Assembly (NCBI RefSeq): GCF_030542105.1
Contig: NZ_JAUOFB010000005.1
Location: 62,001 to 126,000 of the forward strand
DNA: 64,000 nt
Origin: Hymenobacter sp. BT730
GTDB taxonomy: Bacteria > Bacteroidota > Bacteroidia > Cytophagales > Hymenobacteraceae
Reading direction: 5' to 3'
Below, one piece after another: positions 7,888-64,000 of this stretch (its first letter is position 1; each line of letters begins with the position of its first letter). A program made the position numbers and the translations under genes. A model generated the notes under the pieces. That model did no database searches, was not told where the DNA came from, and was given only the letters and a program-made list of their open reading frames with translations.

Positions 7888-8478
7888 TTACTGGCCCAAT
7901 ACTACTTTGGCGTGCCGGATAACCTTGTCGCCCAGATAGTAGCCTTTCTCAATCTCATCCACAATTTTGCCCTTCAGATCTTCGGAAGGAGCCGGAATCT
8001 GGGTGATGGCCTCGTGCAGATCAGGGTCAAACGCACCGCCTTTAGCTTCCATAGAAACCAAGCCTTTCTGCTGAAGCGTCTTGGCCAGTTTTCCGTGAAT
8101 GATGTCGATGCTCTCGCGCACAGCGTTGGCATCCTCGGTGTCTTTGGTGAAGTTGCGGGCCCGGTCAAAATCATCGAGCACAGGCAGCAGCGCCACCATC
8201 AACTCCTGATTGGCGGTCTTGAACAGGTCCGTACGCTCTTTAGAGGTGCGACGCTTGTAATTTTCAAACTCCGCGGCCATGCGCAGGTACTTGTCCTTCA
8301 GCTCAGCTAGCTCCGCATCGGTTTTAGAGCCTTCCTGCTTCGGCGCGCCCTCTACTTCGCCCAGATCGGGGGCATTGGGGTCTTCAGGCAACTCGCCGGC
8401 AATGTGGTCGGCAGCAGCACCAGCCGTGGTTTGGTCAGCCTGCAGGTCGTCGGGGTGTGGTACTTTATCGTCAGCCAT
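7888..8478 (-). CDS. grpE: Nucleotide exchange factor GrpE
   Basis: Protein of 196 residues from the ATG at 8478 (MADDKVPHPDD), the exchange factor that releases ADP from DnaK. An acidic, disordered N-terminus of about 60 residues is followed by the long dimerisation helix (AELAELKDKYLRMAAEFENYKRRT) and the C-terminal beta domain with FDPDLHEAI and GYYLGDKVIRHAKVVL, the family signature. In-frame ATGs also exist at 8520 (MSNRFNPF) and 8571. A sigma-54-like promoter at 8538-8553 would place +1 near 8526, only 6 nt before 8520, which favours the 8478 start, but this is not certain. It is followed by dnaJ. Confidence 0.93.
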   Translation of the reverse strand: MADDKVPHPDDLQADQTTAGAAADHIAGELPEDPNAPDLGEVEGAPKQEGSKTDAELAELKDKYLRMAAEFENYKRRTSKERTDLFKTANQELMVALLPVLDDFDRARNFTKDTEDANAVRESIDIIHGKLAKTLQQKGLVSMEAKGGAFDPDLHEAITQIPAPSEDLKGKIVDEIEKGYYLGDKVIRHAKVVLGQ

Positions 8479-8537
8479 TTTCGCTTGAAATCGTCGGAAT
8501 GGATTGAATCGGTTGGACATAAGCAATTGCCGCAGGC

Positions 8538-8553
8538 ACAAGGAACCTGCCAA
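8538..8553 (-). promoter_or_regulatory. Possible sigma-54-type promoter of grpE-dnaJ
   Basis: On the minus strand TTGGCAGG-TTCC-TTGT resembles the -24/-12 consensus TTGGCACG-N4-TTGC with the exact 4-nt spacing. It has one mismatch in the -24 block and T in place of C at -12. The predicted +1 is near 8526. Confidence 0.35.
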
Positions 8554-8578
8554 ATGCCCGGCAGGTGTCAATTTGGCA
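8548..8578. promoter_or_regulatory. Inverted repeat TGCCAAAT-N15-ATTTGGCA upstream of grpE
   Basis: TGCCAAAT at 8548-8555 and ATTTGGCA at 8571-8578 are perfect inverted copies. A nested pair ACCTGCC/GGCAGGT at 8545-8551 and 8560-8566 is also perfect. The repeat overlaps the -24 element of the putative sigma-54 promoter, so it could be an operator or a structured leader. Confidence 0.4.
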
Positions 8579-8627
8579 CAACAACCTTACCTACCTGGCT
8601 TTTAGTTCGGAAAATTCGGCCGAAGTC

Positions 8628-9623
8628 TTACTGTGCGTGCAGTTCCTGCCAGATCATATCCTTCAGCTGCTGAATATTCTTGTTGGTCAGGCTGGAAATG
8701 AAAATGGTGGGAATATCTGTCGGCAGCGTGGCTTTGATTTCAGCTTCCAGCTCCTCATCCAGCATATCTGCCTTGGTAATAGCCAGCATGCGGCGCTTGT
8801 CCAGCAAGTCCGGATTAAACTGCTCCAGCTCGCTGAGCAATACCTGATACTCGGCCGCAATGTCGGGTGAGTCGCAGGAAATCATGAACAGCAGAATGGC
8901 GTTCCGCTCAATGTGGCGCAGGAAACGGTGGCCTAGCCCCCGACCTTCGGCCGCACCTTCAATGATGCCGGGAATATCGGCCATCACGAAAGATTTGTAG
9001 TCACGGTAAGCCACTACGCCCAGGTTAGGTACCAATGTGGTGAAGGCATAGTCCGCAATTTTGGGCTTAGCCGCGGATACCACAGAGAGTAGCGTGCTTT
9101 TGCCAGCATTGGGGAAACCCACCAGGCCCACATCAGCTAGCAGCTTCAACTCCAGAATGACCCACTCATCAATGCCAGGCTCACCGGGCTGCGCGTATTG
9201 TGGGGCCTGGTTAGTAGCGGATTTGAAGTGGTCGTTGCCGAGGCCACCGCGGCCGCCGGGCGTGAGGATAACGCGCTGGCCGTCTTCGGTTATCTCCACC
9301 TTTTTCTCGCCGGTTTCGGCGTCGCGGGCAATGGTGCCCAGAGGAACCTGAATAATGATATCGTCGCCCTGCTTGCCGGAGCGCAGGTTTTCGCCCCCGC
9401 CTTCGCCTGCCTGGGCAATGAGGTGCTTCTGGTACTGCAAGTGCAGCAGCGTCCAGAGCTGGGAGCTGCCTTCCAGGATGATGTGGCCACCGCGGCCACC
9501 GTCGCCACCATCAGGACCACCATTGGGCAGGCCTTTGGCGCGGAAGAAATGGTGCGAGCCCGCTCCACCCTTACCCGAGCGACAATTGATTTTAACGTAA
9601 TCGATGAAGTTATTAGAAGCCAC
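8628..9623 (-). CDS. obgE: GTPase Obg/CgtA
   Basis: 331-residue essential ribosome-associated GTPase. The glycine-rich OBG domain occupies residues 1-160 ([25 protein letters not shown]). The G domain follows with P-loop GFPNAGKST at 169-177, switch [27 protein letters not shown], and TKAD as the G4 motif. The C-terminal domain seen in some orthologues is absent, as is usual in this phylum. Start is GTG (9621-9623), directly giving [12 protein letters not shown]. Adk lies upstream and grpE downstream on the same strand. Confidence 0.97.
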
Positions 9624-9682
9624 TGGTTTGCGTGTTGATTACTGAAGGTTGCCGGTTGACTTGGCAGCCAACTCAAAAACAA

Positions 9683-9785
9683 CTGTCATCCGGAGCGCCG
9701 CGAAGGACCTTATCCGCGGGAACGACTCGTCGCAACGAGGATCATTCTGGCGGGATAAGGTCCTTCGCGGCGCTCCGGATGACAG
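9683..9785. repeat. Palindromic interspersed repeat, copy 2
   Basis: The 33-bp arms 9683-9715 and 9753-9785 are perfectly complementary around a 37-nt loop containing GAACGACTCG. It is the same family as 6508-6618, sharing TGTCAT-C-GAGC, GCGAAGGACCTT and the loop decamer. The two copies differ at several arm positions, but each difference is mirrored in the partner arm. It occupies most of the spacer between obgE and adk. Confidence 0.85.
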
Positions 9786-9825
9786 ACGTTATCTGCTACT
9801 GCCCAAATGGGCAGCGGCTACAAAG

Positions 9826-10449
9826 TTACGCTTTTACTTCGTCGGTTGCTTGACGGCTGCTTTCCGGGGTGGCAGGCTGATGCTGATCAATGATTCTGCA
9901 GATCTGCCCGAAGATGTCTTCGATAGCGCCAATACCATTGAGCGCATGGAATTTATTCTGCTGGGCATAGTAGCCGGCCACCTGGGCAGTTTCGGTATTG
10001 TAGACAGTTACACGCTTGCGGATTTTCTCTTCGTTCTGGTCATCGGGGCGGCCGGAGGTTTTGCCACGCTCCAGCAGGCGCTTTACCAGCTCTTCTTCGG
10101 CTACTTCCAGCGCCACCATGCACGACACGTTGGTGTTGTGCTGGGCCAGCAGCTCATCCAGGCTCTGGGCCTGGGGCACTGTGCGCGGGAAACCGTCAAA
10201 AATAAAGCCGGCAGCTTGCTTATTGGCTTGCAGGGCGCTGTCAATCATGCCAATCACCACTTCATCGGGCACCAGCAGGCCTTCGTCCATCAGCCGTTTG
10301 GCCCGCAGGCCCAGCTCGGTGCCCTGCGTAATCTGCGCCCGGAGCAGGTCGCCGGTAGAGAGATGCACGAGGTTGTAGCGAGCAATCAGCTTTTGACTTT
10401 GGGTTCCTTTACCGGCGCCGGGAGGGCCGAACAGCACAATATTTAGCAT
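9826..10449 (-). CDS. adk: Adenylate kinase
   Basis: 207-residue enzyme interconverting ATP + AMP and 2 ADP in the cytosol. The P-loop GPPGAGKGT is at residues 8-16, followed by LSTGDLLRAQI, the AMP-binding FDGFPRTVPQAQ and the LID segment ERGKTSGRPDDQNEEKIRKR, which is the short, zinc-free LID type. The reading frame extends to 10512, but MLNIVLFGPP at 10449 is the conserved start. The Gln- and Pro-containing C-terminal tail after IIDQHQ is not conserved. It sits between hpt and obgE, all on the minus strand. Confidence 0.97.
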   Translation of the reverse strand: MLNIVLFGPPGAGKGTQSQKLIARYNLVHLSTGDLLRAQITQGTELGLRAKRLMDEGLLVPDEVVIGMIDSALQANKQAAGFIFDGFPRTVPQAQSLDELLAQHNTNVSCMVALEVAEEELVKRLLERGKTSGRPDDQNEEKIRKRVTVYNTETAQVAGYYAQQNKFHALNGIGAIEDIFGQICRIIDQHQPATPESSRQATDEVKA

Positions 10450-58746: not shown

Positions 58747-60780
58747 GTGTTGAATCCTTTACGAATCAGGCAGCGCGTGCTGTTGCTGGCCATAGTTTGT
58801 TGCGGCTTTTCGGGTCAGGCGCAAGCCCAGGCAGATCCTATTAAGTTTGGTAAAGTCAGCGTAGCTGATTTCACGCCGCTAGCGGCAGATTCTGCTGCGC
58901 CGGCGGTGGTATTGTGCGATTTTGGCGTGTCGAAAGTGGTGGGCGGCGACGATGGCTTCCGCCTGAACTTTGAACGCACCACCCGGATCCTGATTCGCCG
59001 CAAAGCCGGCTATGATTGGGCTACTGTAGAGGTACCGCTCTATCATCATGATGAGCGGACGGAGCGCATTAAGGCACTTAAGGGCACCACCTATAATCTG
59101 GAGGGCGGCAAGCTAGTTGCTACCAAAATGGGCAACGAGAGCATCTTCCGGGACAAGGTGGACGAGCACTTCAATAATTGCCGCTTTACCCTGCCTAATG
59201 TAAAGGAAGGCTCTATTATCGAATTTACTTACACCCTGGATTCCGACTTCCTTTTCAACCTGCAGGACTGGCAGTTTCAATACACCATTCCCGTGCGCTG
59301 GAGCGAGTACCGCACCCTGATTCCGGCTTACTTCCGCTACAAACAGATTACGCGCACCTACCTGCCTTTCACGATTCAGGAAGAGAAGTCAGTACCATAT
59401 TCTACCCGGGTGTCGCAAACCCTGGATGGGCGGCTGGACAAGCAGGACATTCCCATTTCAACCAATGCCCTGAGCAGCCGCTGGGCTATGCAGAATATCC
59501 CTGCCCTGCAGAAGGAGCCTTTCATGACTTCCAACCGCGACTATTTTTCCTCAGTCGAGTTTGAGTTGGCGGTGATTCAGTATTACAATCAACCCCCGAA
59601 GGATGTAGCCAACACCTGGGAAAAGATTGCGGAAGACCTGTTGAAAGAAGAGTACTTTGGACATGATCTGAACCGCACTTCGCCAATAGCCGCCGCTATG
59701 GCCGAGTTGCCCGCTCGCTACCCCGAAGAACAGGCCCGAGCCGCTGCGGTAGTGGCCCAGGTACAGCAAGCCGTGAAGTATAATGGCGAAGAGCGGTTTC
59801 TGACCCAGGTTTCCCTGAAACAGGCCGTGAAGAATGGGCAAGGAAATTCGGCGGCGGTCAACCTGCTACTAGTGCAGGCCCTGCGCGAAGCTGGTCTCAA
59901 TGCCAACCCACTGCTGTTAAGCACCCGCTCACACGGGCACGTGCTGCTGGATATGCCCGTGCTCAATCATTTTAACTATGTGGCAGCCCACGTGCGCCTG
60001 GCCGATGGCAAGGACTTTCTGTTGGATGCCACTGACCCGTTGCTTCCTGCGGGCATGCTGCCGGAGCGCTGCCTGAACGGGCAGGGCCGTTTAATTACGG
60101 ATATCCCTGCCCAAAACCGCTGGGTTTCCCTGGCCCCGGCGCAACGACATACGGAGTACAGCAACGCCAACCTTACTTTGGCGCCCGATGGTACCCTGCA
60201 GGGCAAAGGCCATTGGGAATGGGGCGGTTATGCTGGTCTGGAAGCCCGCGCCACCGGCACCACCGACCTGGTGCGCACCCTGCGCCAGCATCTCGGCGAC
60301 GAAACCCCAAACCCCGCCCCGGTTCTGCCTGCAGCCGCCGATATCAGTAAGCCGCTGGCGTTGGATATGACTGTTCAGATTCCGGGGAGCGAAGCCGGAG
60401 CTGCAGGAACTATCTACCTCGCCCCTATGAAGCATTTTGGTTTGACAAGCAACCCGCTCCGGGCTGAAAACCGCTACTTCCCGGTGGATTTCGGTACGGG
60501 GCGCGACAGAACACATCTGCTCACTATTACACTGCCCAAGGGATATAGTGTAGCGGAACTGCCTAAATCCCAGGTTTTCACGCTTCCCAATGGAGGTGGT
60601 CAATTCCAGTACTCCTGCCTGCAGCAAGGCAATACTATCAGTATAACCAGCAGGCTGAGCCTCCCCAAGACCCAGTACCCTACAACTGAATACAGTGCCC
60701 TACGGGAGTTATATGACCGGGTAGCGGCCAAGCACGCCGAGCCCTTGGTGCTGAGCAAAATCACTAACACGCAGCCTTAA
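58747..60780 (+). CDS. DUF3857/transglutaminase-like protein, catalytic Cys and His lost (1)
   Basis: 677-residue exported protein from the GTG at 58747, giving a signal peptide with a basic start (LNPLRIRQR) and VLLLAIVCCGFSGQAQA. The DUF3857 domain (30-240) has YDWATVEVPLY and FTLPNVKEGSIIEFTYTL. The transglutaminase-like core has NGQGNSAAVNLLLVQALREAG with Ser368 where active enzymes have Cys, Tyr411 in HFNYVAAHV in place of His, and Asp427 kept in LLDATDP. It is therefore probably a non-enzymatic member. GTG at 58702 or TTG at 58750 are alternative starts. It lies 38 bases before the next paralogue. Confidence 0.9.
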   Translation: MLNPLRIRQRVLLLAIVCCGFSGQAQAQADPIKFGKVSVADFTPLAADSAAPAVVLCDFGVSKVVGGDDGFRLNFERTTRILIRRKAGYDWATVEVPLYHHDERTERIKALKGTTYNLEGGKLVATKMGNESIFRDKVDEHFNNCRFTLPNVKEGSIIEFTYTLDSDFLFNLQDWQFQYTIPVRWSEYRTLIPAYFRYKQITRTYLPFTIQEEKSVPYSTRVSQTLDGRLDKQDIPISTNALSSRWAMQNIPALQKEPFMTSNRDYFSSVEFELAVIQYYNQPPKDVANTWEKIAEDLLKEEYFGHDLNRTSPIAAAMAELPARYPEEQARAAAVVAQVQQAVKYNGEERFLTQVSLKQAVKNGQGNSAAVNLLLVQALREAGLNANPLLLSTRSHGHVLLDMPVLNHFNYVAAHVRLADGKDFLLDATDPLLPAGMLPERCLNGQGRLITDIPAQNRWVSLAPAQRHTEYSNANLTLAPDGTLQGKGHWEWGGYAGLEARATGTTDLVRTLRQHLGDETPNPAPVLPAAADISKPLALDMTVQIPGSEAGAAGTIYLAPMKHFGLTSNPLRAENRYFPVDFGTGRDRTHLLTITLPKGYSVAELPKSQVFTLPNGGGQFQYSCLQQGNTISITSRLSLPKTQYPTTEYSALRELYDRVAAKHAEPLVLSKITNTQP

Positions 60781-60818
60781 ACTGCCTTTCTCTGCCTTTT
60801 CACTTCTATTTTCCTTTT

Positions 60819-62870
60819 ATGATATCACGCGTACTCTTATCCTGTGGCCTGACCGCGGGCCTGGTACTGACTGGCCTTACCCAGGCCCATGCGCAAGCCG
60901 ACCCTATTAAGTTTGGCAAGCTGGACCCAAAGGACTTCGACGCCAAAAATTTTGTAGCTGACAGCGGAGCCGAGGCCGTTATTCTATGTGACTTTGGCCG
61001 TTCCCGCATTGACTATCAGCAGGATGGCTTCCGGGTAGTATTCGACCGTATTACCCGTATCAAAATCCTGAAGAAATCAGGCTACGATTGGGCTACGGTC
61101 CGCATACCCCTATACAAGAAAAACTCGGGCGAGGAAAAGGTCACAGCCCTGAAGGGTATGACCTATAATATGGTGAACGGGGAAATGGTAAAAGAAAAGC
61201 TTGAAGCGACGGGCATGTTTACCGAGCAGGTAGATGTCAATCATTCGGCCCGCAAATTCACCCTGCCCAATGTGAAGGAAGGCTCCGTTATTGAGTATGC
61301 CTATACAGTTGCCTCCGATTTCGTCTATAACTTTCAGGATTGGCAGTTTCAGCACACAATTCCGGTGCGCTGGAGTGAATACCGCGCCAACATTCCGGAA
61401 TACTTCGATTATAAGATGTTGATGCAGGGCTATGAGCCCCTGGAGGTGAATGAGCACCCAATATCTACTGGTCAAATGACGGTGCGCTGGTCAGGCCAAA
61501 CCAAGTTCGGACTGGCAGATACCCGGACGGCGGGGGGAGCTGAAACCCTCACTCCCCAGGTGACCAACCACCGCTGGGCTATGAAGAATGTGCCTGCCTT
61601 CCGCGACGAGCCTTACATGACGACCCGGCAGGACTATATTGCCCGCATTGATTTTGAACTGGCCGGCACCAAAATGCCCGAGCAGCCATATGATATCAAG
61701 CTAGGCACCTGGGTAAGTGTGGGCAATGAGCTGATGGGCAACGAGAACTTTGGACTGCAGCTAAACCGTACCGGCTTCCTAAAAGCCGAGGTAGCAGCTA
61801 TTGTAGCGAAATACCCCGACCCGACGGAGCGCGCCGCCGCTTTAGTAGCTCTCACCAAACAGAGCATCGGCTTTGACGGTAACGACCAGCTCACCAGCAA
61901 CGATGGCATTCGCAAGGCATTTGAGCAGCACCGGGGAAACTCTGCCGATGTAAATCTGCTGCTGATTGGCTTGCTGCGGGATGCCGGCTTAACCGCTACC
62001 CCGGTTATCCTCAGCACCCGCGACCATGGCCGCATCGATGAAAACGTGCCTATGGTTAACCGTTTTAACTATGTACTGGCCCACGTAGCTCTACCCGACA
62101 ATAAAGAGCTCCTGCTGGATGCCACTGAGCCCCTGGCCAGCGTGGGTATGCTGCCGGAGCGCTGTCTGAACACCATGGGCCGTCTGATTCCCGACAAGGC
62201 TGATCAAGGGCGCTGGATTGAAGTGGCCTCCTCACAGCGCTACGTGCATTTCCAGATGGCGCAACTGGCGCTGGATGAGCGGGGTGGTCTGACCGGAAAA
62301 GTGCATGACGAGCACGGCGGCTATCAGGCTCTGCAGGCCCGGACCAAACTACATGCAGACGGGGAGAAGAAATATGTGGAGAATAACTACCTGAAGGCTA
62401 ATGAAGGCTGGGAGATATCGAAATATACTTTCCAACAGAAAGACGTGCTCAGCAAGCCACTGGCACTTGATATGGAAGTGAAAGTGGCCGGTGGTGAGGC
62501 CGCTGCCTCCACCATCTACCTTAGCCCTATGCGGCATTTCGGGGAAAACCGTAACCCCTTCCTGCTGGAAAACCGCCTCTTCCCGGTAGACTTTGGCGCC
62601 GCCCACGATGAAACGCACATGCTCACTTTCACGCTGCCCGCTGGCTACGAGGTTGAGGAGCTGCCCAAGAGTGTGCTGGTAAGCCTGCCTGATAATGGGG
62701 GCCGCTTCCAGTACAGTGTTACCCCCAGCCCCGCTGGTCTGCAGGTAGTAAGCCGCATTACCTTCAGCAAGCCGTCGTACTCAGCCGAAGAATACGCGGA
62801 CCTGCGAGAGTTCTACAATCATATCGTGGCGAAGCACGCCGAGCAGATTGTGCTCAAAAAGAAATCCTGA
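60819..62870 (+). CDS. DUF3857/transglutaminase-like protein, catalytic Cys and His lost (2)
   Basis: 683-residue exported paralogue of the previous gene; the N-termini share ADPIKFGK after the signal peptide (LLSCGLTAGLVLTGLTQAHAQ). DUF3857 domain 30-260 with FTLPNVKEGSVIEYAYTV. At the transglutaminase site HRGNSADVNLLL has Ser375 for Cys and NRFNYVLAHV has Tyr418 for His, while Asp434 in LLLDATEP is kept. It has the same loss as the first copy, so it happened before the duplication. Likely a periplasmic binding or scaffolding protein. It is co-directional with the third member, 1 base apart. Confidence 0.93.
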   Translation: MISRVLLSCGLTAGLVLTGLTQAHAQADPIKFGKLDPKDFDAKNFVADSGAEAVILCDFGRSRIDYQQDGFRVVFDRITRIKILKKSGYDWATVRIPLYKKNSGEEKVTALKGMTYNMVNGEMVKEKLEATGMFTEQVDVNHSARKFTLPNVKEGSVIEYAYTVASDFVYNFQDWQFQHTIPVRWSEYRANIPEYFDYKMLMQGYEPLEVNEHPISTGQMTVRWSGQTKFGLADTRTAGGAETLTPQVTNHRWAMKNVPAFRDEPYMTTRQDYIARIDFELAGTKMPEQPYDIKLGTWVSVGNELMGNENFGLQLNRTGFLKAEVAAIVAKYPDPTERAAALVALTKQSIGFDGNDQLTSNDGIRKAFEQHRGNSADVNLLLIGLLRDAGLTATPVILSTRDHGRIDENVPMVNRFNYVLAHVALPDNKELLLDATEPLASVGMLPERCLNTMGRLIPDKADQGRWIEVASSQRYVHFQMAQLALDERGGLTGKVHDEHGGYQALQARTKLHADGEKKYVENNYLKANEGWEISKYTFQQKDVLSKPLALDMEVKVAGGEAAASTIYLSPMRHFGENRNPFLLENRLFPVDFGAAHDETHMLTFTLPAGYEVEELPKSVLVSLPDNGGRFQYSVTPSPAGLQVVSRITFSKPSYSAEEYADLREFYNHIVAKHAEQIVLKKKS

Positions 62871-62871
62871 T

Positions 62872-64000
62872 ATGCGGCTACATTTCCCTCTTATAGCTGG
62901 GCTGCTGGCGTTTACCAGTACTGCCGGGGCCAGCCCCAAGGTGCGTTTTCCGGTAGCTGCTATGCCGGCCGCGTTGCGTGAAAATGCTCATGCTGTGGTG
63001 CGCCTCTATGACCATACCTTCACGGTAAAGTCGGCGGGGCAGGCAGTAAACACGCTACATTTTGCCATTACGGTGCTCGATGAGCAGGGTGATGACTACG
63101 CTACTGATATAGTGAGCTATGACCGGTTTACCAGCATTAACTACCTGCGCGGCACCGTGTACGATGCCAATGGAAAGTTACTGCGCACGTTACGCTCATC
63201 GGATATTAAGGATGTCAGCCTTTCTTCCGGCGCCAACCTTTCCGATGATAACCGGGCCCAGGTAGCACGCCTGCAGCAAGGCAGCTATCCTTACACGGTA
63301 GAGTTTGAGGAGGAGTATACCACTTCCAACACGCTTTTTTACCCGGTGTGGCGTCCGCTGCTGAACACGCATTTAGGAGTAGAGCAGTCACACTTCCAGG
63401 TGCTGATGCCTGGTTCGCTCCCGGCGTTGCGTTATCGGGAACTCAACCTGCCTGCTGAGGTGCAAGCCAAACATCAGACGGTAGGTAATCAGATTGTGCA
63501 TGAGTGGAGCATAGCTAACCTGCCCGCACTGGAACTGGAGGCCTACAGCCTGCCTGCGCGTGAACTGCTCCCCGCCGTGTATACTGCTCCTTCGCAGTTT
63601 GAAGTACAGGGCCATACCGGTGACTTATCTACCTGGGAAGGCCTCGGGAAATGGGAATATAAGCTAAACGAAGGGCGCAATGTGCTGCCGGAAGCCGTTA
63701 CGGCCCGCATGAAAGAACTGGCCCAGCGCGTACCGGATATGCGGGAGCGTACCCGCCAGGTATATGAATACTTGCAGGGCAGCACCCGCTATATCTCCGT
63801 GCAATTGGGTATTGGAGGCTGGCAATCGGCACCCGCCACAGAGGTAGCAACCCGGGGCTACGGCGACTGTAAAGGCCTTTCCAACTATGGCATGGCCTTG
63901 CTGCAGGCGGCGGGTGTACCCTCCTACTGTGCCCTGGCCGGCGCTGACCAGCCCGATATTCAGACGGACTTTCCCAGCAACCAGTTCAACCACATGATTC
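62872..64000 (+). CDS. DUF3857/transglutaminase protein, catalytic residues kept (3), partial
   Basis: The first 376 residues of a protein that runs off the window edge. Signal peptide LHFPLIAGLLAFTSTAGA, then a DUF3857 domain (25-235), then the transglutaminase core beginning near 280. GYGDCKGLSNY gives C333 and NQFNHMI gives H374, the Cys and His of an active enzyme; the Asp would lie beyond the edge. It starts one base after the stop of the preceding paralogue (TGAtATG), so translation is probably coupled. It is the only one of the three with an intact Cys-His pair. Confidence 0.92.
   Translation, partial: MRLHFPLIAGLLAFTSTAGASPKVRFPVAAMPAALRENAHAVVRLYDHTFTVKSAGQAVNTLHFAITVLDEQGDDYATDIVSYDRFTSINYLRGTVYDANGKLLRTLRSSDIKDVSLSSGANLSDDNRAQVARLQQGSYPYTVEFEEEYTTSNTLFYPVWRPLLNTHLGVEQSHFQVLMPGSLPALRYRELNLPAEVQAKHQTVGNQIVHEWSIANLPALELEAYSLPARELLPAVYTAPSQFEVQGHTGDLSTWEGLGKWEYKLNEGRNVLPEAVTARMKELAQRVPDMRERTRQVYEYLQGSTRYISVQLGIGGWQSAPATEVATRGYGDCKGLSNYGMALLQAAGVPSYCALAGADQPDIQTDFPSNQFNHMI

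Follow-up and report, generated by a model that had tools for sequence, protein, structure and literature searches.

What would keep three exported DUF3857 genes in a row when two of them have lost the residues on which the third appears to rely? The question is raised by the end of the window analysed here, a stretch of 64,000 nucleotides (nt) from Hymenobacter sp. BT730 (G000:C9:62001-126000; the genome comprises 4.1 Mb in 13 contigs), in which members 1, 2 and 3 follow one another on the plus strand, 38 and 1 nt apart, a spacing given by an earlier sequence-only reading and borne out by the coordinates of the open reading frames (ORFs). On balance, we think it somewhat probable that member 3 is an envelope enzyme and that members 1 and 2 are near-obligate pseudoenzyme partners of it. 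Below, a paralogue without the catalytic residues is called dead, and relatives of members 1 and 2 and of member 3 are called M1/M2 type and member-3 type, respectively.

Residues were called by alignment to an intact DUF3857 paralogue on contig C5 of the same genome. In members 1 and 2, Ser stands for the catalytic Cys and Tyr for the catalytic His, with the Asp kept (Table 1), and member 3 retains Cys333 and His374, all of which agrees with the sequence-only reading. The third residue of member 3, which that reading had supposed to be an Asp past the window's edge and whose loss it would have counted as a refutation, is instead Glu393 (WLECTSQ), 48 nt beyond it, making the site Cys333-His374-Glu393; this Glu is nevertheless the rule of the family. 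In a Hymenobacteraceae-centred set of 78 loci (77 named and the window's own), Cys, His and Glu occupy the three positions in 77/77 member-3-type rows with residues there, own included, one row being cut off. In the class sample (149 genomes, own included), Cys and His are present in 16/16 rows each, with Glu in 15/16 and Asp in one, and in the fetched phylum loci Cys and His are present in 46/46, with Glu in 44 and Asp in two (L301, L313). Judged by alignment, member 3 carries a Cys-His-Asp/Glu triad. Across 152 dead rows of the Hymenobacteraceae-centred set, in turn, the Cys position holds Ala in 87, Ser in 57, Val in five, Thr in one and a gap in two, and never Cys, and the other two positions hold Tyr (150/150) and Asp (149/149) in every row with a residue. 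Both Cys and His occur in none of the 28 M1/M2-type genes of the class sample, one having Cys without His and five His without Cys, and Cys is at the site in 0/75 M1/M2-type rows of the fetched phylum loci, some rows being the same gene twice; M1/M2-type genes of the phylum sample were counted by profile match, and residues were read solely in the fetched loci. One row, from genome G174, has ambiguous bases at both Cys and His, such that the script's "dead, alone" is not a real call.

At every distance sampled, the active type almost always adjoins a dead one. The 77 named loci were fetched by their dead gene, and hence show that member 3 comes after dead genes and not the converse, and they share genomes with the unnamed loci and are not independent of them; in 78/78 loci of the Hymenobacteraceae-centred set, the last dead gene precedes member 3 on the same strand, at distances from overlaps (of 4 nt in 14/78) to 290 nt and, at L119 alone, of 2617 nt. 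PF12969 (DUF3857) is matched in 30 of the 39 genomes of the nearest relatives, counting the own one; 40 chosen loci, rather than every match, were fetched from these relatives, and 23/25 member-3 loci, own included, have an M1/M2-type neighbour; at L028, a member-3 locus without one, the contig ends about 0.8 kb away. In the class sample, in which 61 genomes have a PF12969 match, all 80 matching loci outside the own genome were fetched and gave, with the two own loci, 132 family ORFs, five of the 80 (L199, L214, L220, L240, L253) giving none under the cut-offs; a dead neighbour within 600 nt on the same strand accompanies 15/16 member-3-type genes. The phylum sample covers 296 Bacteroidota genomes, some shared with the class sample and hence not independent, scored at cut-offs of E 1e-80 and 1e-60 with at most four candidates per genome. 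Member 3 occurs in 72/296 and the M1/M2 type in 87/296 of these: both in 71, member 3 alone in one, M1/M2 type alone in 16 and neither in 208; the Fisher p computed for this sample takes no account of how the genomes are related. An M1/M2-type gene stands within 700 nt on the same strand beside 74/75 member-3 loci, from 19 families, and at the 75th (G430) a 284-residue M1/M2-type piece begins a few nt away and runs off the contig. Member 3 lacks the dead type in 1/72 genomes, and even there a dead-type piece is at the contig edge, which suggests that member 3 needs the dead type.

The order of the genes is less constant than their adjacency. The dead gene comes first in most families of the phylum sample, the active gene comes first in f68, f36, f16 and once in f77, and dead genes flank member 3 on both sides within 5 kb in three cases; a member-3 locus holds one to three dead copies, and the linkage is kept in both orders, such that rearrangement with linkage kept argues against mere inherited order. 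The conserved linkage of active and inactive members that the sequence-only reading asked for is borne out, in 75/75 phylum loci counting the contig-edge case, and the exact trio and order are not universal. Chance is excluded as the source of the arrangement by its conservation. In the Hymenobacteraceae-centred set, dead ORFs number two in 62 loci, one in 10 and three in six, split ORFs accounting for two of the last six (L073, L113). Two member-3 genes in one set were found at none of the 77 named loci; in the phylum sample, G331 carries a pair of them within a span of 6 kb.

The dead genes are not only adjacent but also constrained. Median ratios of nonsynonymous to synonymous substitution rates (dN/dS) are 0.071 for member 3 (29 pairs), 0.080 for member 2 (27 pairs) and 0.0625 for member 1 (18 pairs), in pairs of close species chosen by member-3 similarity, several with dS above 1; one saturated member-1 pair was dropped, as were two member-2 pairs from L087 (non-orthologous copies, 0.56-0.58), with which the member-2 value over all 29 pairs is 0.088. 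Purifying selection acts on the dead genes as it does on the active gene, and members 1 and 2 are in this sense pseudoenzymes, their catalytic residues lost and their genes conserved under selection. The nucleophile column of 67 full-length M1/M2-type rows is mixed, with Ser in 17, Gln in 14, Val in 12, Ile in 10 and other residues in the rest, while the polar pocket is kept (N379 in 64, S399 in 64, R401 in 60, G404 in 66, N417 in 64, D434 in 66) and N579 and R586 are invariant (67/67). A variable nucleophile among kept pocket residues indicates that the dead site has been emptied of chemistry rather than freed. The proteins are also predicted to be exported, as the sequence-only reading had stated for each member: a crude test of our own scores signal-peptide-like N-termini in 64/65 member-1, 76/78 member-2 and 77/77 member-3 type rows, against 2, 6 and 15, respectively, in its internal control.

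In trees, which contain many weak branches, the M1/M2, member-3 and C5b types (C5b being the dead gene of a second pair described below) each fall on one side of a branch (quick tree, 96 rows; support 99, 100 and 100). In a FastTree analysis of 148 rows, the two dead positions form separate groups within Pontibacter, and again within Hymenobacter subgroups, and the copies of a locus are sisters in 1/66 loci; it appears that the dead gene was duplicated on more than one occasion.

The fold was approached through AlphaFold models of member 2 (pLDDT, the predicted local distance difference test score, 90.2) and of a close member-3 orthologue from Hymenobacter guriensis, locus L049 (pLDDT 89.0), from which, and not from the window's own member 3, all member-3 fold results come. 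In the member-2 model S375 begins a helix and Y418 begins a strand, like the Cys and His in the orthologue model. The catalytic domain of the orthologue aligns with LapG, a C93 periplasmic cysteine protease, at Z 10.5 over 134 residues, and with the eukaryotic transglutaminases TG2 and factor XIII at Z about 9.5 over 150 residues, and member 2 aligns with TG3, PNGase and TglA at Z 9.2 to 10.5, all as in a transglutaminase-like fold; such middling scores speak for arrangement and not for function, and the Foldseek and VIA-align lists from which they come can miss folds. LapG, TG2 and factor XIII are not known to have a DUF3857 part. LapG is controlled by LapD and is not known to be controlled by dead paralogues. 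The dead transglutaminase folds Rad4/XPC and Protein 4.2 also align with member 2 (Z 8.1 to 10.2). A passage of PMC10318531 presents inactive families as excision-repair scaffolds and names EPB42 as inactive. Rad4/XPC and Protein 4.2 are eukaryotic, whereas members 1 to 3 are bacterial and putatively exported. Human EPB42 lies near transglutaminase genes, so that neighbourhood alone is not unique to the DUF3857 set. The DUF3857 part of member 2 aligns with OST1/ribophorin I (Z 10.8) and with the N-terminal domain of M1 aminopeptidases (Z 7.8 to 8.6), likenesses that are weak and at the level of common arrangements.

A near whole-length match is found in PDB entry 3kd4, the Parabacteroides distasonis protein BDI_1141, which was deposited under the name "Putative protease" (DUF3857/DUF3858). 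The model of the member-3 orthologue aligns with it at Z 27.1 over 487 residues (Foldseek E 4e-30) and that of member 2 at Z 23.9 over 483 residues (4e-28); when the PDB was searched by sequence, member 3 alone gave no match. It belongs to a lineage separate from members 1 to 3. In its relative L241:4595-6286 (8e-121), YGTPLE replaces the YGDCKD of the active members, and in 3kd4 itself, followed through two alignments, His and Asp are both absent from their places. The sole solved relative found, which the portion of PMC4866520 consulted lists merely as a superfamily member, thus reads as a probable dead member by its residues.

These observations suggest the following course. Member 3 would be exported by the Sec route and act in the envelope as a cysteine hydrolase or transamidase of transglutaminase-like fold, its site being assigned by conservation. 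Members 1 and 2 would be exported paralogues unable to perform the chemistry of member 3, in which the nucleophile position, and for the most part the His position, may vary freely while the fold and the polar pocket residues are conserved. Most likely they serve as subunits without catalysis, their emptied site taking up a protein or peptide substrate of the kind on which member 3 acts, and they may present it to member 3 or hold it near, in a ratio of partners of perhaps 1:1 to 3:1 set by the number of genes. The complex proposed by the sequence-only reading, in which the dead forms bind substrate or regulate member 3, would fit the selection, the retained pocket and the kept linkage.

Several findings weigh against such a partnership. 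The trio is dispensable, with two of 25 same-genus genomes, own included (G001, G012), having no PF12969 match and a third, G015, having a pair of the C5 type alone. In G025, member 3 and the M1/M2 type lie about 91 kb apart on one contig (L035, L036), and in G039, the exception among the member-3-type genes of the class sample, member 3 and three M1/M2-type genes are spread over four contigs, none adjoining. The dead gene can live alone, as it does in 16 of the 87 dead-type genomes, where (15 fetched, L314-L328, with G172) a single M1/M2-type gene has no family neighbour, that of L320 being 1.1 kb from a contig end. Of 17 active DUF3857 genes of other types in the class sample, 15 stand alone. 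Over 41 loci, the evolutionary distances of members 1 and 2 correlate with those of member 3 at a partial r of 0.53 each, barely above neighbouring control genes (0.43 and 0.34), a weak hint that does not decide. As for a substrate, no neighbour recurs class-wide at a fixed place beside the M1/M2 and member-3 genes beyond close relatives.

Of these findings, the dead-only genomes, the separated types of G039 and G025 and the weak distance correlation would all be expected if the dead members were independent envelope binding proteins, sharing a pathway and a cluster with member 3 and never touching it; the near absence of member 3 without the dead type argues otherwise, and we regard this as unlikely, a shade more so than a role as negative regulators or shields. 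In the latter case, the dead members would occupy or block member 3, or take up its product or its substrate, and so restrain a dangerous envelope hydrolase; their nearly constant linkage, mostly upstream and in one to three copies, would suit an inhibitor produced ahead of its target and in surplus over it. However, the reversed order in f68, f36 and f16 does not follow from this, nor do the 16 genomes with a dead type and no member 3 (G172 has one PF12969 match, and it alone was looked at for other DUF3857 enzymes), and conservation of the pocket is better explained by a ligand than by a docking face alone, all of which makes inhibition unlikely, though it is the foremost of the alternatives.

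The lost residues themselves admit other readings. With Ser at the Cys position in both copies of the window and the Asp kept, members 1 and 2 could be enzymes of another kind, using a Ser nucleophile or migrated residues, yet of 150 rows near home 87 have Ala there, 57 Ser, five Val and one Thr, and phylum-wide the position is Ser, Gln, Val, Ile or others; a Ser enzyme is a poor reading because the nucleophile position alternates between Ala and Ser, and we hold this possibility to be improbable. The candidate migrated residues His403 and Cys449 were rejected, being conserved in 20/67 and 14/67 rows phylum-wide. Decay of functionless tandem duplicates, to which a few broken copies (L073, L113) would correspond, is for most lineages hardly credible given dN/dS near 0.08, conserved columns in 67 rows and linkage over 19 families. 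Partnership of an envelope enzyme with dead paralogues remains the reading that we prefer.

Members 1 to 3 are not the only set of this kind. The same genome encodes the pair C5a (active) and C5b (dead) on contig C5, where, as in the window, an active gene adjoins a dead paralogue; it differs in that the active gene is Cys-His-Asp and stands first, and in that the dead type has lost the Asp as well in 24/28. In the class sample, the C5a type has Cys, His and Asp in 34/34, and the C5b type (n = 28) has Cys at the column in none and Asp in four, rows L242, L257 and L264, with a Cys two positions ahead of the Cys column, being counted as dead by alignment. A dead neighbour within 600 nt on the same strand is present for 30/34 C5a-type genes of the class, the exceptions being G150 (1.2 kb from a contig end), G155 (cut by a contig end), G039 and G082. 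A third lineage has an active gene and then a dead gene in 2/2 pairs (L241, L261), the dead gene of L241 being the close relative of 3kd4. Among the 17 other active genes, eight encode proteins of about 1250 residues (L190, L192, L196, L212, L213, L225, L236, L239) without a dead neighbour, with the active DUF3857-transglutaminase half C-terminal and, in L212, the one scanned, tetratricopeptide repeats (TPR) in front; another, L205 (853 residues), has a DUF2569 part behind.

It is possible, though we would stop short of calling it probable, that these lineages (member 3 with M1/M2, C5a with C5b, and that of 3kd4) form a phylum-wide class of envelope enzymes and pseudoenzymes, in which DUF3857 enzymes of about 650 residues are made to act together with a dead paralogue and 3kd4 is a dead half. 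Active relatives that carry an extra module in the same chain (seen by scan in L212 and L205 and judged by length in the others) stand alone, and the dead partner would then take the place of a module for targeting or for substrate binding that is fused in those relatives. DUF3857 and its related domain families, and pseudoenzyme partners as an arrangement, are already known. The pairing of active and dead DUF3857 proteins was not found in the literature searched, a search whose scope lay outside most subscription journals and in which DUF3857 appears solely as a neighbour of lolA and DUF3858, PF12969 and PF12970 are not mentioned. The arrangement is widespread and nearly exceptionless where examined, and has been masked by "DUF" labels and by the name "putative protease"; through it, a group of uncharacterized envelope proteins from a large phylum becomes a system of two or three parts that can be tested, and the sole solved relative found is read differently. 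Natural variation, with one, two or three dead copies, both orders and dead-only genomes, lets the contribution of the dead enzyme be asked cleanly.

Member 1 shares 47% identity with member 2 and 18% with member 3, and the closest named relatives found for member 2 come from Hymenobacter species (best 63% identity). Behind a signal-peptide-like N-terminus, member 1 has a DUF3857 part, a dead transglutaminase-like domain and a weak DUF3858 match; member 2 has the same first three parts, its model aligning with 3kd4 to the C-terminus. In Pfam, all three exceed the PF12969 cut-off of 24.6 bits (25.0, 33.1 and 69.3 for members 1, 2 and 3); Transglut_core is above its cut-off in member 2 alone (24.3 vs 23) and below it in member 1 (17.6 bits, E 0.0047) and member 3 (21.9, E 2e-4), and DUF3858 falls short of its cut-off in members 1 and 3, with no match listed for member 2. 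Pfam lists no C-terminal sorting domain of the type IX secretion system (T9SS) for members 1 to 3, and NCBIfam has no family for them or for the C5 pair. Promoter-like sites number 7 vs 4.3 in shuffles (standard deviation 1.9) and terminator-like sites 5 vs 6.8 (2.4), a scan that is not informative, and therefore no operon is claimed on it.

Table 1. Features of the DUF3857 sets, in window positions (64,000 nt) except where a locus is named
Feature	Position	Strand	Remarks
Member 1, DUF3857	58747..60780	+	677 aa; S368, Y411, D427
Member 1 Ser368 codon, place of catalytic Cys	59848..59850	+	by alignment
Member 1 Tyr411 codon, place of catalytic His	59977..59979	+	by alignment
Member 2, DUF3857	60819..62870	+	683 aa; S375, Y418, D434
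Member 2 Ser375 codon, place of catalytic Cys	61941..61943	+	by alignment
Member 2 Tyr418 codon, place of catalytic His	62070..62072	+	by alignment
Member 3, DUF3857	62872..64000, continuing 809 nt beyond the window	+	645 aa; Cys333, His374, Glu393
Member 3 Cys333 codon	63868..63870	+	by alignment
Member 3 His374 codon	63991..63993	+	by alignment
Member 3, whole gene	L006:5373-7310		
C5a (active) and C5b (dead), contig C5, same genome	L007:5956-7902, 7960-9954		

Smaller departures from the common arrangement are seen at single loci. At L119, an ORF with a T9SS tail and a weak glycosyl-hydrolase-79 match (L119:11470-13563) is inserted ahead of member 3, and at L071 a DUF4249 protein (L071:7735-8925) lies between two dead genes. 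The ORF is split in member 3 of L009 and in a dead gene of L073 and L113, by assembly error or decay, and in most of the lone M1/M2-type genes of L314-L328 the Cys and His positions vary freely. Directly upstream of C5a, 22 genomes have a gene of about 1100 codons (e.g. L211:9069-12395), with TPR and MORN repeats in the one scanned.

Around the trio, a major facilitator superfamily (MFS) gene lies upstream in 64/78 Hymenobacteraceae-centred loci, in 56 at the -1 position. Downstream of member 3, L006:7417-10743 encodes a reprolysin-like metalloprotease with a T9SS sorting domain, a family found near the set in 37/78 loci; the MFS and reprolysin neighbourhood is synteny of near relatives. Convergent with the set, on the minus strand, L006:10837-13833 encodes a helix-hairpin-helix protein of 711 residues and a protein of 282 residues, whose families lie near the set in 68/78 and 44/78 loci, respectively.

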